Positions 41,542 through 50,179 of a DNA stretch of 64,000 nt are shown here, piece after piece. Numbering within the stretch: position 1 is the stretch's first letter; each line of letters opens with the position of its first letter. The notes beneath the pieces are model-generated. The model was not told the DNA's origin, did not search any database, and saw nothing but the letters and a program-made list of their open reading frames with translations. This DNA comes from a bacterium (GTDB taxonomy: Bacteria > Armatimonadota > UBA5829). The translations under genes were made by a program, and so were the position numbers. The stretch spans positions 50,646 through 114,645 of the forward strand of contig JAJFUS010000033.1 of the NCBI GenBank assembly GCA_021372295.1, in the 5' to 3' direction.

Positions 41542-41569
41542 TTTGAGACTTCGGACAGGAGGAGTTACA

Positions 41570-41926
41570 TTGGAAGGTATCCGTCTGGAAACCGAGTTGA
41601 GAGATATCGAAGGTATGAAAATCCTGGACGTGGCAGGTGAGATCGACGTCTACACAGCGCCGCAGTTTAAGGAAGCAGTTAATTCCGTTCTTTCCGCCGG
41701 TCAGCGGCATCTTATAGTCAACATGGCCAATGTAACCTATATGGACAGCAGCGGTTTCGGCGCGCTGCTCTCCGCCACAAAACGGCTCAGACCTGCCGGC
41801 GGGACAGTTAATCTTGTCAAGTGCAGCGGGGCAATCGACAGAATCCTCAAAATCACCAGGCTCAACACCGTATTTGCCACATTCGACAGCGTTGACGAGG
41901 CGCTGGACGCGGCGAAATCACTTTAG
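41570..41926 (+). CDS. STAS-domain anti-sigma factor antagonist
   Basis: 118 residues from TTG 41570 with GGAGGAG seven bases upstream. Whole protein is one STAS domain like SpoIIAA/RsbV: MKILDVAGEIDVYTAPQFKE, then LIVNMANVTYMDSSGFGALL with the phosphorylatable Ser in DSSG, and NLVKCSGAIDRILKITRLNT. In this family the unphosphorylated form binds an anti-sigma kinase and frees a sigma factor. No RsbW-like kinase or partner sigma is in the window. Confidence 0.93.
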   Translation: MEGIRLETELRDIEGMKILDVAGEIDVYTAPQFKEAVNSVLSAGQRHLIVNMANVTYMDSSGFGALLSATKRLRPAGGTVNLVKCSGAIDRILKITRLNTVFATFDSVDEALDAAKSL

Positions 41927-43644: not shown

Positions 43645-46053
43645 TCAAAGAGCGTTACTGGAATAATCGGGCGGAGCGATGCGCGTGACACCATTTAGCA
43701 ATGCCGCTGCTTCGAGTTTACCTATCGGCAACCATCCGAGCAGAATTTTGTCCTTAACAGCCCAAGTGTTACCCGAAAGTCCAAGTTTCTTGAGTTTCGT
43801 GAGATGCTCACAAGACTTGACCCATATCATAACCTCCACCTTTCCGTTCTTCACGATCAGCTTACCCGGAATCGAAAGCCCACTTGACTTGCCGGATTTC
43901 TTGTATTTCGCGATAAGGTCAGTCAGCAGAGTATTCAAGTGATTCCCAGGTGTTTTTGCGTCAGATTTCGTTGCGGCCTTTTCTTCCAACCTGCTATATG
44001 AGCCGTTCGCCGGGCTGGGCGCGCAGGCAAAATAGCAGCACTTGGCATTGGCAGCCTGTCCCACAATACTGTCGCACTCACTCTTGCCGAGCACTCCCTC
44101 ATAGCTTACGCCCTCGGGCATCTCAACAGGCACAGCGACAGTTCTCGGGGTCCCACCAAATGTCACGACCATCTTCTCGACCGCTACAAAGGATGTGTAT
44201 TGTGTGACCAGATTGTAGTCCAATGCCACGTCTGTAATGGCCTCTTTGACATCCGGCATAGGATTGCCGGTCTGCGCACCTATCCAGTCCTGGCTCATCA
44301 GATCGTCTACTTTAGCTCTGGCCCATATAGGTATTATGCCGTCGTTGTCGAGTTGTTCTGCCGGAAGTGTGACCGTGATCGCCTGCGACCATGCTCTGCC
44401 GTTCACTCGTCCGTGCACAATTATTTCGCCCGACGCAGGCCCGGTATATCGTCCTTTCATCACCAGCGGGGTCGAACCGAAGAGGTCGGGGATGGCCTTT
44501 GGATAGACCTCGTCAACTTGGATCGGCAGTCCGTTCCAATCCACTGAGATGTCTGTCAGAAGAGGATTGTGGATGCGCTCGTAGAACTTCTCGGCAATAC
44601 CTTTGCTGTCCGAATTGAGTAGCACGACCTGCGCAGCGCCGCGTCCTGCTTCCGCCATCTTCTCGATAAGGAAACGGTTCACGCTGCTGCCGATCCCGAA
44701 CGGAAACATGCGGGCGTTACCTGAGTGCTTTTGAATATAATCTATAACCTCGAAGTCGTTGCCGATATATCCGTCGGTGAAAAAGACGACAACGCGCAGC
44801 CGGTTAGAATCGGGCGAGGCGTCGAGAGCGGTCTTGACTGCGGGAAGCATCATAGTCCCACCAGTCGCATTGCATTCATCGAGATATCGAAGCGCAGATT
44901 GTTCATTTGTGCTGTTGAACGGCTGAGGGGTATCGAAAAGCTTCTTCACGTCACTGGAAAACGAGATCATATTGAACGTGTCGCCGGGATTCATATTGCG
45001 GATGCAATGGATCATCGTTTCCTTTGATTTTGCGAGCGGTTCGCCCTGCTGGCTGCCTGATGTATCGATCACAAAGACCATCTCTTTGGGAGTGATCGAT
45101 TGCGGCTTCGGCGACTTCGGCGGCTGCATGATCAATGCGAAGAATCCACCATTGCCTGTGGGCGCACTTGTTATCAGCCCGCTTGTGATCTGATCTCCAG
45201 CGACATCGTATTTGAGCACGAAATCCTTATTGGGAATTACGGACTGATCCTTGAGAGTGACGATTGATGACGACTGATCTGGAAATTCGCAGTCCACCTC
45301 GTGCGATTCGCTCCAAGCCTTCGCAATCGGTATGCCGGCGTCTATTTCCACACGAACGGATATGTCGTGGCCTGCCCGAGTGCCTTTCGGAGTGATGGGC
45401 GCGGTGATTTTTGATGCGTCGGGCACCTGGTCTGTATCCGGTTCGCGACCCGTTCCAGAGCATGCAGTCGGGATGCCGGGGATAAACCTAGGGCCGACCA
45501 CCATCGGAAATACGAACTCATACGTGCTGTCCTCGTATTTGAGAAGTTGGGTATAGCTGATGGTGATTTCAACTTTTTCGCCGGGCATTATGTTCGCGAC
45601 CGACTGCGTGAATATATTGGGCCGCTCCTGGTCGAGCAGGCTTGCAACGTGTCCTGCTTCCTTTGCGGCTTCGTATATCTCACGCGCTTCCTCACGCCGG
45701 TGAATCTCGCCGACGATAGTCCGCTTGCCGACGGTCATCTCCATCCGATCCACTGCGGCATCTTCGGGAAGAGGGAATGTGTAAACGGCCTCGATCTTCT
45801 CTTTTGTGGGATTGAAAAACTCCTGCACAACGTTCACCCGGGCGCAAAAGCCGATAATCTGCGCGTCGACATCGGTATGCTTCAAAGGGCAGGCGCCTGC
45901 CGGTTTACCATCTGTCCCGGTTATTACAAGTTCACCGGGCGTTATGGGGGTCTCTAGCGGGTTAGCTGTGGCGAGGGCGTTGCTCGAGTTGAGCGTCGCG
46001 GCCGCGCACACCACCACTGCGATTAAAACGACACTGACCAGAACTTTCATCAT
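43645..46053 (-). CDS. secreted VIT and von Willebrand A domain protein
   Basis: 802 residues from ATG 46053 (GGAG seven bases upstream). Signal peptide about 1-20, VIT domain at about 45-180 (VQEFFNPTKEKIEAVYTFPL, RPNIFTQSVANIMPGEKVEI), vWA domain at about 325-490 with a complete metal site (DTSGS at 330-334, TGGTMM, FTDGYIGND), and the VIT-associated VTQYTSFVAVEK. The last 60 residues share a domain with the upstream anti-sigma factor. No C-terminal membrane anchor or sorting signal. Probably an adhesion or sensor protein acting outside the cell. Confidence 0.9.
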   Translation of the reverse strand: MMKVLVSVVLIAVVVCAAATLNSSNALATANPLETPITPGELVITGTDGKPAGACPLKHTDVDAQIIGFCARVNVVQEFFNPTKEKIEAVYTFPLPEDAAVDRMEMTVGKRTIVGEIHRREEAREIYEAAKEAGHVASLLDQERPNIFTQSVANIMPGEKVEITISYTQLLKYEDSTYEFVFPMVVGPRFIPGIPTACSGTGREPDTDQVPDASKITAPITPKGTRAGHDISVRVEIDAGIPIAKAWSESHEVDCEFPDQSSSIVTLKDQSVIPNKDFVLKYDVAGDQITSGLITSAPTGNGGFFALIMQPPKSPKPQSITPKEMVFVIDTSGSQQGEPLAKSKETMIHCIRNMNPGDTFNMISFSSDVKKLFDTPQPFNSTNEQSALRYLDECNATGGTMMLPAVKTALDASPDSNRLRVVVFFTDGYIGNDFEVIDYIQKHSGNARMFPFGIGSSVNRFLIEKMAEAGRGAAQVVLLNSDSKGIAEKFYERIHNPLLTDISVDWNGLPIQVDEVYPKAIPDLFGSTPLVMKGRYTGPASGEIIVHGRVNGRAWSQAITVTLPAEQLDNDGIIPIWARAKVDDLMSQDWIGAQTGNPMPDVKEAITDVALDYNLVTQYTSFVAVEKMVVTFGGTPRTVAVPVEMPEGVSYEGVLGKSECDSIVGQAANAKCCYFACAPSPANGSYSRLEEKAATKSDAKTPGNHLNTLLTDLIAKYKKSGKSSGLSIPGKLIVKNGKVEVMIWVKSCEHLTKLKKLGLSGNTWAVKDKILLGWLPIGKLEAAALLNGVTRIAPPDYSSNAL

Positions 46054-46144
46054 AGCACATCTCCTTTTGGATGAGTAGAACATCATCGTGCGATTTGCAC
46101 ATAGTGTTAGACCCCTAAGGTTGGAGATGCTTCAATATAATTGT

Positions 46145-47197
46145 TTATTTGTCAGTCGTTACAGTCTGAACTGGAGAAATTCGGACGACGAAATTGAGCT
46201 GGGCAGTCTCCTGGAGCTTATCGACGGGTGCCGACGCCGTAAATGTGCGGGTTTGCCTGTCCCATTTAATTTCCGACAGGCCAAGCTTTTCAAAGCAGTT
46301 TATTGCGTCTTTTGGCGGAAGCTTTACTTGAATGACAACCTTCGCGTAGCTGCGAGCACCGCCCGATTGTTTACTCCGCTCGACATTTTCGCGTAGTGAG
46401 TTGTCGAGTTTTTCTTCCGCCCTAGAGTTGAGTGACGAACCCGCTACTGCATTATCGCGAGACACAGACGCTACCTGAGGCGTTTGCGCGTGAAATTCCA
46501 GCTTTGCTTCTTCTGCTTTTGAAGAAACCACGTCAGCGGTATATGACGCGGCCGGGGCTTCTTTGAGCGTTCTCCCTTTGCTGACAGGTTCTTCGGGCAC
46601 CGGCAAAGCTTTACTGGCCTTGAATCCGTCGATATTTCCCAGCGATTTGGTTCGCTCAACACTGCGAACATCAGGCTGGGCGACAGGAGCGATGCCAGCA
46701 GGCGACTTAGCCATAACATATTTCTTGCCGACAGGCTTTTTGGCTACGCGCGCATCCCTGTAAATCGTCGATGCAGGTGCGGCACTTTTGGCGATTTCAG
46801 GACTCTGCGCAATCCTGGCAGTTGCCTGAGGCGCGGAACATGATGCAACTTCACGCGTCAGTTGCGGTTGCATGCCCGGACGTATGATCGCCAATGCAAT
46901 CACTGCCACCAGCACAGCCGCGACGCCTGCAGGCATTAAGCTCCAGATCCACGATCTTTTCGCAGGCGTAGGTTCATCGGATATTCGCGCGTTCACTTTT
47001 GCCCAAAGGTCCGGTGCAGGTTCCATAGCTGGGTTATCCGCCTGCCTCAACGCACTCGAAACCGAACGCACCATCTCCAGTTCGCATCTGCACTGATCAC
47101 AATGCGCAAGGTGGCGTTCGAGCCGTGTGCTCGAATGCTCGTCCAGTGAATTTTCACTATATGAGATCAGCAGTTTTCGACATCTATGACACAACAT
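46145..47197 (-). CDS. zinc-finger transmembrane anti-sigma factor
   Basis: 350 residues from ATG 47197 (GGTGG five bases upstream; ATG 47209 possible), overlapping the sigma gene by 14 bases. N-terminal ZAS/zf-HC2 domain ends in the H29-x3-C33-x2-C36 motif (RHLAHCDQC); a transmembrane helix spans about 83-105; a long Ala/Pro/Ser/Lys periplasmic linker leads to a domain at about 286-343 (KVVIQVKLPPKDAINCFEKL) also found at the end of the downstream vWA protein. It sequesters the ECF sigma factor until signalled. Confidence 0.88.
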   Translation of the reverse strand: MLCHRCRKLLISYSENSLDEHSSTRLERHLAHCDQCRCELEMVRSVSSALRQADNPAMEPAPDLWAKVNARISDEPTPAKRSWIWSLMPAGVAAVLVAVIALAIIRPGMQPQLTREVASCSAPQATARIAQSPEIAKSAAPASTIYRDARVAKKPVGKKYVMAKSPAGIAPVAQPDVRSVERTKSLGNIDGFKASKALPVPEEPVSKGRTLKEAPAASYTADVVSSKAEEAKLEFHAQTPQVASVSRDNAVAGSSLNSRAEEKLDNSLRENVERSKQSGGARSYAKVVIQVKLPPKDAINCFEKLGLSEIKWDRQTRTFTASAPVDKLQETAQLNFVVRISPVQTVTTDK

Positions 47198-47789
47198 TTG
47201 AACCACCATCCCCCAACCACCCGATCTGGCCTTTGAGTTTTCTGCACGCGAAATGCAGCCTCGACCAAACAGTACCCACCGAGCAACCCAGTATCTTCGC
47301 AATCTCCGCGCATGAGCAGTTTTGGAAATAGTGAAGCACCACAACCGCGCGATGTTTCTCGGGCAGTGTTTCGATGGCCTTGCGCAAAGCCTCATTGCGC
47401 GCACTCTGCTCGGCTATCTTGTCCGGCTGATCATTCTCCAAGCCAGGCAGTGTCTCACCGAGCCTGGTGAGTGGGTCATCGATAGATATTGCCCGGCGTG
47501 TCTTGATCTTTTTCATCTGCTTAAGGGTTGTATTTACAGCAATTCTGTAAATCCAGGTCGAAAAGGCCGAATCGCAGCGAAATGTGGCAATCGACTTGTA
47601 GGATATGACAAATACCTCTTGGACAATATCGTCAACATCGTCCCGATCACTCACCATGCGCGAGACGACACCATACACGACGCCTTGATACCGCATTACG
47701 AGTTCCCCGAATGCGGCAACATCGCCCACTTTGCTCCTTGCCACAAGCGCGGCATCAGTTTGTTCCCCGGAAGTCTGTATCGGGGACAC
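47184..47789 (-). CDS. ECF-family RNA polymerase sigma factor
   Basis: 201 residues from GTG 47789; TTG 47819 and TTG 47882 are in-frame alternatives that would add 10 or 31 residues before the normal ECF start (DAALVARSKVGDVAAFGEL). Sigma region 2 (DVDDIVQEVFVISYKSIATF) and region 4 (LPEKHRAVVVLHYFQNCSCA EIAKILGCSVGTVWSRLHFA) are canonical. No clear ribosome site precedes any start, so a leaderless mRNA is possible. It starts the sigma/anti-sigma/vWA operon. Confidence 0.9.
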   Translation of the reverse strand: MSPIQTSGEQTDAALVARSKVGDVAAFGELVMRYQGVVYGVVSRMVSDRDDVDDIVQEVFVISYKSIATFRCDSAFSTWIYRIAVNTTLKQMKKIKTRRAISIDDPLTRLGETLPGLENDQPDKIAEQSARNEALRKAIETLPEKHRAVVVLHYFQNCSCAEIAKILGCSVGTVWSRLHFACRKLKGQIGWLGDGGSNVVS

Positions 47790-47889
47790 TTGGTCGATCG
47801 AGACTATAATTAACTCCAAAGCAACCAGATATGCGTTGACGACAAACTGCTGTCGAAAATATAAGCTAATGATACCATGCAAATCGCTT

Positions 47890-47904: not shown

Positions 47905-48008
47905 GCCTCCGTATTATTTAGACCTCACAACAATGCTATCGCTTCAAAAAAACTGTCCAATCCAAAATGACGGGCAAAAAAGGATGCGTGTCAAAAATGG
48001 GGAAAGTG

Positions 48009-48110: not shown

Positions 48111-49223
48111 CTACAAGCTCTCCGCCGCAGTCCTGGCAGTCAACTCGTCGATCTGTCGCTTCAGTTTCTCCGGCAATCCTGTAGCCTCAATCTTCAGAAA
48201 CCCGCGCACGATAGCTGAAGTGGCCTCGTCACGGGTAAGTCCCCTGGACATCAGGTAGAGAACCTCGTCCTCAGCGATTTTACCGACTGCCGCCTCATGC
48301 GACATCTCGACTCCGTCCGCTCGACCTTCAAGCTCCGGGATCGCGTGTATAACACCATTTTCAGACAATATGAGCCCGCTGCACTCAAGATGCGCTCGAA
48401 TTCCAGACACCTCGCCTATCAGATGCCCGCGAGATATATTGACGCCTCCCGTAGTGATCGCCCTGGCGATGGATTCGGCTCGAGCGCCAGGTGCCTGCAG
48501 ATAAATCCTGCTGCCGACGTCCAGTGTCGAACCAGGATGAGACACAAGCACCGAGTTCATAGTAGCCGTCGAGTTTTCGCCTTTGAGGTAAACAGTCGGG
48601 TACATCTGCAGCATACGTACCGGTCTGAAGCAGAAGTAATTGTTTACGAGCACCCCACCCTGTTCAACTATGATCGCACTTCTTGGGCGAACATCTACAT
48701 CCAGCCCCCAGTTGTGAATCATAGTAAAGTTAAGGCGGGCATTTTTCTTAATGTACATCTCGCTCACACCGATGTGCATGCCTTGTTGCTCGGCCTTAGA
48801 AGTGGCGCAGCCGGTGACGATTGTAAGCTCAGACCCTTCTTCTGCGATCACGATGTTGTGCACTTTTTGAGTTTGGCCGGACTGCTTGATATACATGCAC
48901 GTCTGAACTGGCACGGTCACTTTCGCGCCGGGCAGCGCTCGAATGAAATAGCCCGCCGGTTCGACTTCGGCTGTAGCTCTGGTATAATCATCCTTGTCGG
49001 GCTGTATAGCATTCCAATAATAATCTTTAACCCAACTATACTTATCCAGGGCCGAAGCGACATCCATCACTTCGACATCACTTTGCATGGACTGTTGGCT
49101 CTGAGCTTTTTGCCCAACTTGAATAAACGTCCCGCTGCGCTCTATCTCATGATTAATATCGACTCCCACAGTAAGCATGCGCTCTGCGTCTTCTCTGGTC
49201 AGTTCATCAGTTTTGGTATTCAT
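48111..49223 (-). CDS. SufB/SufD family Fe-S cluster scaffold protein
   Basis: 370 residues from ATG 49223, overlapping sufC by four bases (ATGA). Beta-helix core of the SufBD family: TGCATSKAEQQGMHIGVSEM YIKKNARLNFTM, RSAIIVEQGGVLVNNYFCFR, NSTATMNSVLVSHPGSTLDV and the C-terminal MSHEAAVGKIAEDEVLYLMS RGLTRDEA. Forms a complex with SufC that assembles iron-sulfur clusters. Only one SufB/D-type gene is present, as in minimal sufBC-type systems, and no sufS/sufU is adjacent. Confidence 0.88.
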   Translation of the reverse strand: MNTKTDELTREDAERMLTVGVDINHEIERSGTFIQVGQKAQSQQSMQSDVEVMDVASALDKYSWVKDYYWNAIQPDKDDYTRATAEVEPAGYFIRALPGAKVTVPVQTCMYIKQSGQTQKVHNIVIAEEGSELTIVTGCATSKAEQQGMHIGVSEMYIKKNARLNFTMIHNWGLDVDVRPRSAIIVEQGGVLVNNYFCFRPVRMLQMYPTVYLKGENSTATMNSVLVSHPGSTLDVGSRIYLQAPGARAESIARAITTGGVNISRGHLIGEVSGIRAHLECSGLILSENGVIHAIPELEGRADGVEMSHEAAVGKIAEDEVLYLMSRGLTRDEATSAIVRGFLKIEATGLPEKLKRQIDELTARTAAESL

Positions 49224-49975
49224 TGTGCGCCTCCATTCGGCGAAGGGCATATCCTGCACCGATCATAGCCGAATTGCCTGATGTGTTCGAGCATGTCGCG
49301 TGGATTTCCTGAGCAGGTGATTGAGCCATCGCAGAGAATGTGACCCTTGTCCGCATTAACATACTCGAGAATGAAACCCGTGTGGGTTATTATCAGCCCG
49401 GAAGCGGCTCTGGGCCCCTTACGAAGCTCGTTTTTGTGCAGCAGTTCGTTAATGGCATTTCCAACAAGCCCAATGTTCACCAGATCGACTCCCGACTCCG
49501 GTTCGTCAAACATTATCAGGTCAGGCGATTGAGCCAACAGCTGCAAAAGCTCGGAACGTTTCGCTTCGCCGCCGCTGTAGCCCAGATTGAGGTCTCGGTC
49601 AAGAAGATATGATACATCCAGTCGATTCGCAGCGCCGGTCACGTCGAGATTGTTGCCGCTCAGACCGGTCGTCATCTGCACCGCGTCTTGAAGAGTAATC
49701 CCTTTGATGGCCGGAGGCTTCTGCACGGATATTCCAACACCAAGCCGGGCGCGCTCGTCCACTGTCATATTGGTGATGTCCTGACCCTTGAATATAATCC
49801 TGCCGGAGGTCACCTTGAACTGAGGATAGCCCATTATGGTAGACAGGAGAGTGCTCTTGCCCGATCCGTTCGAGCCAAGCAAGGCATGGACTTCGCCTTG
49901 TTTGATCTCGATATTTACTCCATTAAGTATCTGCCGGTCGCCAATCGACACTGAAAGATCTTCTATCTTAAGCAT
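49220..49975 (-). CDS. sufC: Fe-S cluster assembly ATPase SufC
   Basis: 251 residues from ATG 49975 (MLKIEDLSVSIGDRQILNGV). Walker A GSNGSGKST at about 36-44, SufC-type GYSGGEAKRSELLQLLAQ signature and Walker B LIMFDEPESGVD, followed by LIITHTGFILEYVNADKGHI. ATP binding drives structural change in the SufBD scaffold. ABC ATPase without a transporter partner. Followed by the SufB/D-like gene. Confidence 0.93.
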   Translation of the reverse strand: MLKIEDLSVSIGDRQILNGVNIEIKQGEVHALLGSNGSGKSTLLSTIMGYPQFKVTSGRIIFKGQDITNMTVDERARLGVGISVQKPPAIKGITLQDAVQMTTGLSGNNLDVTGAANRLDVSYLLDRDLNLGYSGGEAKRSELLQLLAQSPDLIMFDEPESGVDLVNIGLVGNAINELLHKNELRKGPRAASGLIITHTGFILEYVNADKGHILCDGSITCSGNPRDMLEHIRQFGYDRCRICPSPNGGAQ

Positions 49976-50060
49976 AACGGGTTTCTCCCGAACAGACTGC
50001 GCTGCAACTAGCACAACAGTTATACCCTCCTCAGATCCATCCAAACCGCATAGATCGTAC

Positions 50061-50095
50061 AAAAAATAAAACCCGCCGCAATAGGTCGGCAGGTT
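50061..50095 (-). terminator. intrinsic terminator after tRNA-Arg
   Basis: Minus strand AACCTGCCG / CGGCGGGTT (one G-U pair) with an 8-nt loop, followed by TTATTTTTT. It separates the tRNA from sufC. Confidence 0.85.
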
Positions 50096-50103
50096 TCAGT
50101 TAT

Positions 50104-50179
50104 TGGCGCACCCGGCGCGATTCGAACGCGCGGCCTTCTGCTCCGGAGGCAGACGCTCTATCCACTGAGCTACGGGTGC
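50104..50179 (-). tRNA. tRNA-Arg(CCG), CCA encoded
   Basis: Minus-strand cloverleaf of 76 nt: acceptor GCACCCG pairs with CGGGTGC, D arm GCTC/GAGC, anticodon stem TCTGC/GCAGA with loop CTCCGGA (anticodon CCG), T arm GCGCG TTCGAAT CGCGC, and encoded CCA at the 3' end. Strong promoter and terminator flank it, so it is a separate transcription unit. Confidence 0.95.

Follow-up and report, generated by a model that had tools for sequence, protein, structure and literature searches.

The nearest described model for the gene order reported here is the RpoE-RseA-RseB system of Escherichia coli where, as stated in a part of PMC8103513, RseB binds the outer part of the anti-sigma factor RseA and must release it before cleavage. 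We studied a window of 64,000 nucleotides (the whole stretch of DNA analysed, from contig JAJFUS010000033.1 of an uncultured bacterium in the phylum Armatimonadota) in which genes for an extracytoplasmic function (ECF) sigma factor, an anti-sigma factor predicted to restrain it and a VIT-vWA protein follow each other. The anti-sigma factor and the VIT-vWA protein were found to share a homologous C-terminal domain, and copies of one putative promoter box stand before the ECF and VIT-vWA genes, here and in relatives. Both this locus and RpoE-RseA-RseB (again from the relevant part of PMC8103513) combine an ECF sigma factor with an anti-sigma factor in the membrane and a third protein, from the same operon, that is located outside it, a fit of gene order and predicted location. 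They differ in that the outer protein here is of VIT-vWA type, has a putative promoter box to itself and shares a domain with the anti-sigma factor.

Another comparison is with SigV-RsiV of Bacillus subtilis. Excerpts of PMC5014341 describe that the outer part of RsiV binds and inhibits lysozyme, and that cleavage frees SigV and defence genes are induced. The likeness would be in idea only, i.e., an anti-sigma factor whose outer part might bind and inhibit an attacking enzyme; in SigV-RsiV this enzyme is lysozyme rather than a protease, and there is no separate effector with the same domain. Among the matches listed from the open PubMed Central (PMC) literature, no system of the kind described here was found. 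The nearest case was an Azospirillum ECF factor which, according to the available part of PMC12826043, when over-produced raised a gene cluster with vWA proteins. PMC3188799 was rejected as a precedent, since the vWA gene mentioned there belongs to a kinase operon and is not an anti-sigma gene's neighbour.

Gene organization of the locus

An earlier sequence-only reading of the window had placed the anti-sigma factor and VIT-vWA genes consecutively on one strand, behind the ECF gene, and its coordinates and adjacency were right. The features of the three genes were as follows:

47184..47882, minus strand: ECF sigma factor gene, a 232-residue open reading frame (ORF) opening at TTG, true start uncertain, with Pfam and NCBIfam matches
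46145..47197, minus strand: anti-sigma factor gene, 350 residues, its own ATG overlapping the 3' end of the ECF gene
47090..47113, minus strand: Hx3Cx2C zinc-finger motif, anti-sigma residues 29-36 (motif scan)
46883..46939, minus strand: predicted transmembrane (TM) helix, anti-sigma residues 87-105, mean hydropathy 2.76 over 19 residues
46172..46351, minus strand: shared C-terminal domain, anti-sigma copy, residues 283-342 (alignment, profile, model and fold comparison)
43645..46053, minus strand: VIT-vWA gene, 802 residues, ATG at 46053 preceded by AAGGAG, signal-type helix at the N-terminus
45553..45885, minus strand: VIT domain (PF08487, 131.2 bits)
44629..45084, minus strand: vWA domain (PF13768, 79.4 bits), with DTSGS and later motifs of metal ion-dependent adhesion site (MIDAS) type (motif scan)
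43672..43842, minus strand: shared C-terminal domain, VIT-vWA copy (alignment, profile and whole-protein model)

The ECF product presented both region 2 and region 4 in the Pfam and NCBIfam scans (Sigma70_r2 57.6 bits, Sigma70_r4_2 64.2 bits, TIGR02937 110.8 bits). In family scans the anti-sigma product scored just below the Pfam cut-off for zf-HC2 (19.0 bits against 22.2) and reached 55.7 bits against a cut-off of 100 for the NCBIfam antisigma family. Its sequence is on record from two contigs, the longest of 184,559 bp, which speaks against an assembly join. Given the TM helix of the anti-sigma factor and the signal-type helix of the VIT-vWA protein, both copies of the shared domain are predicted to lie outside the membrane.

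The VIT-vWA protein had the domain order VIT then vWA, both in the Pfam scan and in structure comparison. The closest solved fold of the VIT-vWA core was inter-alpha-inhibitor heavy chain 1 (PDB 6fpy; TM-score 0.71 by target length, 18% identity), from which the window protein differs in being bacterial and in having another C-terminal domain. In architecture it was also like TIGR03788 (marine proteobacterial sortase target), which it matched with 511 bits over residues 71-664; this is below the curated cut-off of 551.65, so that the protein falls outside the family as curated, and its C-terminus is the shared domain.

A C-terminal domain shared by the two proteins

Comparison of the anti-sigma factor with the VIT-vWA protein confirmed that the two are homologous over their C-terminal ~57 residues. 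The likeness, noted earlier over about 58 residues, was an ungapped 57-residue match running from KVVIQVK to RISP in the former and from KVEVMIW to RIAP in the latter, with a BLOSUM62 score of 74, whereas none of 5000 shuffles scored above 47. A profile built from the C-terminal domains of 120 VIT-vWA proteins, with the window's own VIT-vWA protein included and the anti-sigma factor left out, matched anti-sigma residues 286-342 with 41.5 bits (E 8.5e-15, single-sequence search), so the profile comparison suggested in the sequence-only reading was significant.

Structure prediction, suggested there as well, gave the same strand-helix-strand-strand-helix-strand order in the model of the anti-sigma domain and in that of the whole VIT-vWA protein, and not different folds; the alignment behind the latter model (A1) contained no row from the window anti-sigma factor. 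In fold the domain model was nearest to subtilisin propeptides, whose strand-helix-strand-strand-helix-strand topology it has, and a fold of this propeptide kind is predicted for the shared domain. A Foldseek search with the model returned nothing at E 0.001 or better, a PDB sequence search with the domain profile gave no significant match (best E 0.074), and the Pfam scan of the window domain gave no match. Among 50 domain members scanned no Pfam family was convincingly supported, the weak matches being CspB_prodomain (three), Fervidolysin_NPro-like (two) and Inhibitor_I9 (one), with a best E of 0.02. Compared with subtilisin propeptides and Inhibitor I9, the domain is here C-terminal on non-protease proteins, and the window domain is without a sequence match to them. 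The source genome had four S8 peptidases, and none of its subtilase ORFs matched the domain profile.

A putative promoter box conserved across the class

The same bipartite box was first spotted by eye in the DNA before the ECF and VIT-vWA genes:

47918..47947, minus strand: box before the ECF gene with the form TTGAAG-N18-GTCTAA, a putative ECF-type promoter
46107..46135, minus strand: box before the VIT-vWA gene with the form TTGAAG-N17-GTCTAA, a putative ECF-type promoter

Because the same box precedes both genes, the sigma factor likely transcribes both units. The strict form TGAAGC-N16/17-GTCTAA occurred at two sites in 2.65 Mb, which were the ECF and VIT-vWA boxes, and the reversed pattern at none; the chance expectation for the strict box within the window was 0.02. 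In G002, a genome of the same genus, the VIT-vWA and ECF genes are divergently oriented; there TTGAAG-N17/18-GTCWAA had two sites genome-wide, one facing each gene, and the reversed pattern one. Three further sites of the looser pattern in G000 fell within ORFs: two in same-strand ORFs of 1106 and 368 residues, and the third under a 158-residue same-strand ORF and a 749-residue ORF on the opposite strand.

Conservation was examined in 28 genomes, i.e., the window's own and 27 labelled as ranging from the same genus to the same class. An ECF ortholog (at least 170 bits; next best 131) was present in 14 of the 28, and a box lay upstream of it in all 14: seven were found by the pattern, three by a looser pattern and three by eye, and in G015 the box stood before the gene preceding the ECF gene. 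The ECF operon is predicted from these sites to be autoregulated through an ECF-type promoter. We then scored VIT-vWA genes with a matrix made from the ECF-ortholog boxes of 13 genomes (G015 excluded), in which no VIT-vWA sites were used. It found a box 34-66 bp from the ATG of the VIT-vWA gene in all six class genomes with both genes, with scores of 13.9-20.7 when each genome's own ECF site was omitted from the matrix. In G005, which has a VIT-vWA gene and is without a close ECF ortholog, the score was 7.9 and no box was found. The lowest of the six scores was attained by at most 181 of 20,000 random 200-bp windows, which were not purged of true sites. When 277 upstream regions, the ECF and VIT-vWA sites among them, were ranked with the matrix, VIT-vWA or ECF genes accounted for six of the top seven, including one from a genome (G029) that is not of the class.

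Since the box stands before the VIT-vWA gene in all six class genomes with both genes, we predict that the sigma factor has a conserved target in this gene. Four of these genomes have it away from the ECF gene (on a different contig in three, at 4.6 kb in one). VIT-vWA proteins, a widespread bacterial type with the fold of inter-alpha-inhibitor heavy chains, would in this way be linked to one particular sigma factor and promoter box, and their function would become open to experiment.

Occurrence of the domain

The domain was present in 120 of 120 VIT-vWA proteins examined, the best 120 of 2053 matches; the query of that search included the domain, so the list favours its carriers. In 80 VIT-vWA loci and 19 further stretches, partly overlapping places, all 68 ORFs with the domain were VIT-vWA proteins, and 34 of 102 VIT-vWA ORFs or pieces did not match it. 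The domain is thus common in this VIT-vWA subfamily. Within the phylum, 52 of 291 genomes contained it, and the sole anti-sigma-type carrier seen was the window's own, whose score in this search was given by construction, as alignment A2 included its row. The 56 domain places listed comprised 30 loci (L131-L160), 25 places judged by ORF length alone, and the window anti-sigma factor. A VIT-vWA body was also matched in 29 of the 30 loci, the exception (L157) being a 159-residue piece; two of the 25 others were short, with 260 and 38 residues. None of three other anti-sigma relatives from a large protein collection matched the domain profile.

The C-termini of the anti-sigma orthologs varied. 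They looked repeat-like by eye in G002, G016, G017, G018, G020 and G024, and were short tails ending in LFxYP in G010, G013 and G015. Anti-sigma relatives at L169, L170 and L172 and in P0002 and P0004 also showed a conserved LFxYP tail or, by eye, repeat-like C-termini, as if the outer end were often exchanged.

A proposed feedback on the anti-sigma factor

We propose, with a probability of about 0.5, that the sigma factor transcribes the VIT-vWA gene in addition to the operon it is encoded in, and that feedback runs from the secreted VIT-vWA protein to the anti-sigma factor, the two competing through the shared domain for a single partner. This partner, outside the membrane and perhaps a protease given the fold, would bind the anti-sigma domain and promote cleavage of the anti-sigma factor. 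The freed sigma factor would then yield more VIT-vWA protein, and this protein, once secreted and with its domain behind a flexible linker, would soak up the partner so that the anti-sigma factor recovers. In relatives with other anti-sigma ends the VIT-vWA protein would be a sigma output without this return path. The feedback through the shared domain is what we infer from its presence on both proteins; an anti-sigma factor that bears the same domain as the predicted effector in its regulon would be a simple way of closing the loop. The boldest step is the nature of the partner: a propeptide-like fold and inhibitor-like targets (see below), by analogy with RsiV, suggest a protease. Proteases of the site-2 type (Peptidase_M50) serve sigma release in other systems, and a Peptidase_M50 was found in the source genome.

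Several results weigh against this proposal. The box hexamers were picked from the two window sites, and the independent tests in relatives therefore weigh more. Over 15 genomes the looser pattern gave 73 matches against 51 for its reverse, a modest excess, and it fell below the reversed control in G015 (11 against 14) and G017 (3 against 7); position and conservation therefore carry the argument for the box. Genome G001 has the box before a VIT-vWA gene of a second type (see below) yet is without a close ECF ortholog. In other lineages the ECF-linked VIT-vWA proteins of L094, L108, L110 and L124 did not match the domain profile. The domain was seen on an anti-sigma factor in one genome only, so the feedback step hangs on a single case. 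Lastly, among 170 domains the anti-sigma copy was closest to that of P0025 (score 140), ahead of G002 (105) and of its own VIT-vWA neighbour (74). P0025 is a VIT-vWA protein, by eye very similar to that of same-genus G002, and since the nearest relatives of the anti-sigma copy are domains of this P0025/G002 type, the anti-sigma factor probably acquired the domain within the genus.

Such an acquisition is also what a rival explanation would use, in which the VIT-vWA protein is merely an output of the sigma factor and the anti-sigma domain a generic outer module from a within-genus duplication, with no feedback. The wide differences between ortholog C-termini, as of a region freely exchanged, and the single genome with the domain on an anti-sigma factor agree with it. 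The module acquired is, however, the one found on the protein encoded next door, itself a conserved predicted target of this sigma factor and so an unlikely random pick, and the copy still scores 41.5 bits against the VIT-vWA domain profile. We regard this explanation as rather unlikely, though a serious competitor to the proposed feedback.

ECF genes next to VIT-vWA genes in other lineages

A survey of gene coupling covered the best 80 of 581 VIT-vWA loci. A same-strand ECF gene lay shortly upstream of the VIT-vWA gene in 10 of the 80. Among loci whose upstream flank extended over 3 kb or more the count was 7 of 54, against 1 of 55 for a same-strand ECF gene downstream, a modest excess, and several of the cases were Bryobacterales. 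As to trios of the present kind, for which the sequence-only reading had called for a genome-context search, a zf-HC2 protein stood between the two genes in L110 alone among the 10. The intervening protein of L054 was of TM type with TonB_C, and in L056, L066, L082, L089, L103 and L127 TM-type proteins intervened that matched no anti-sigma family in the scans made. No separate anti-sigma gene was evident in L124, where the genes overlap, or in L094, with only an unrecognised 114-residue ORF between them.

In L094 and L124, and within the phylum in L037, the VIT-vWA ORF directly behind the ECF gene carried an N-terminal segment and a TM helix. One ORF, P0032, on a single 4-kb contig, combined VIT-vWA and the domain with a TM segment and a zf-HC2 finger (35.3 bits); a search with its N-terminus for more one-piece anti-sigma/VIT-vWA proteins returned P0032 alone, and the N-terminal segments of the other one-piece forms had no anti-sigma family match.

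These forms, together with the gene order sigma factor, anti-sigma factor, VIT-vWA protein, are what would be expected if the VIT-vWA protein were an RseB-like sensor or co-regulator that binds an outside ligand and directly holds or releases the anti-sigma factor, the two domains pairing. Two observations speak against it, namely that in four of the six class genomes the VIT-vWA gene lies elsewhere and yet keeps its box, as a target would, and that only the N-terminal segment of P0032 resembles an anti-sigma factor. We consider this possibility doubtful. It was close to the idea of the sequence-only reading, that ligand binding by the VIT-vWA protein is passed to the sigma factor. From that idea a real shared domain and two copies predicted outside the membrane are retained, as is the tie of the VIT-vWA protein to this sigma factor (box in six of six class genomes, ECF gene upstream in 10 of 80 loci, one-piece forms elsewhere). 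The clearest link makes the VIT-vWA protein a predicted sigma target rather than a demonstrated sensor, and the shared domain, seen on an anti-sigma factor in one genome only, cannot be a general signalling route.

Two proteins of this survey had further features. The TM-type protein between the ECF and VIT-vWA genes of L054 (L054:1163-2593) ends in TonB_C, which also occurs on the VIT-vWA proteins P0093 and P0105, not on L054's own, and is perhaps a second domain common to both kinds of protein. The VIT-vWA protein behind the ECF gene of L094 (L094:2915-6355) has an N-terminal TM helix and, at its other end, a match to the squalene-hopene cyclase C-terminal family.

Other genes behind the box

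Boxes were also found before genes of three further families, which were selected after matches had been seen, so that the pattern is a lead. Four alpha-2-macroglobulin genes, in G016 (L293), G019 (L299), G021 (L301) and G025 (L298), had the box, each time 486-488 bp upstream of the MG2 domain. In the 17 of 27 MG2 places scanned (L294 was left out for want of upstream DNA), the box preceded 4 of 12 genes in genomes with an ECF ortholog and none of the 5 in genomes lacking one. A serpin gene of G015 (L255:1685-2998, 383 bits) had it 52 bp before the start; for serpins the counts were 1 of 3 in ECF-ortholog genomes and 0 of 7 elsewhere (10 of 15 places scanned). The third family was a second type of VIT-vWA gene, distant and without a match to the shared domain in the phylum-wide domain search, with boxes in L225, L226, L229 and L230 (G010, G015, G020 and G001), i.e., in 4 of 7 class genomes scanned and in 0 of 3 outside the class. 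Altogether, 12 of the 14 ECF-ortholog genomes had at least one box-bearing VIT-vWA, alpha-2-macroglobulin or serpin gene; in G013 and G024 no box was found before any gene of these families scanned.

If the alpha-2-macroglobulin and serpin targets hold, the sigma factor would control a regulon of protease-inhibitor-like proteins. The shared domain might then bind a subtilisin-type protease, with the anti-sigma factor sensing the protease directly and the VIT-vWA protein being one of several induced inhibitor-like proteins. This would suit the subtilisin propeptide-like fold, the presence of four S8 peptidases in the genome and the box counts just given for alpha-2-macroglobulin and serpin genes; we hold it to be improbable. 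Carried further, the locus could be a bacterial protease-defence switch, an ECF regulon of relatives of plasma protease inhibitors (heavy-chain-like VIT-vWA proteins, alpha-2-macroglobulins, a serpin) whose anti-sigma factor uses the inhibitor-like domain of the main effector as its sensor, so that the same domain would detect and neutralise an attacking or runaway protease. It would be the protease counterpart of RsiV and lysozyme, a conjecture with rather long odds.

That the C-terminal likeness is due to chance or to an assembly artefact, as the single genome with the domain on an anti-sigma factor might hint, can be dismissed as highly improbable given a score far beyond 5000 shuffles, the 41.5-bit profile match and a sequence from two contigs.

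Among the other genes preceded by a box in relatives were those of an ARPP-1 protein, a trypsin-like peptidase and a protein with ankyrin repeats.

Neighbouring genes

On either side of the locus the following features were found, the first two being our own assignments from sequence:

41543-41926, plus strand: gene of what we take to be a STAS-type anti-anti-sigma protein
48111-50062, minus strand: presumably SufB/SufC-like genes
50104-50179: tRNA-Arg (tRNA scan), adjoining the putative SufB/SufC-like genes

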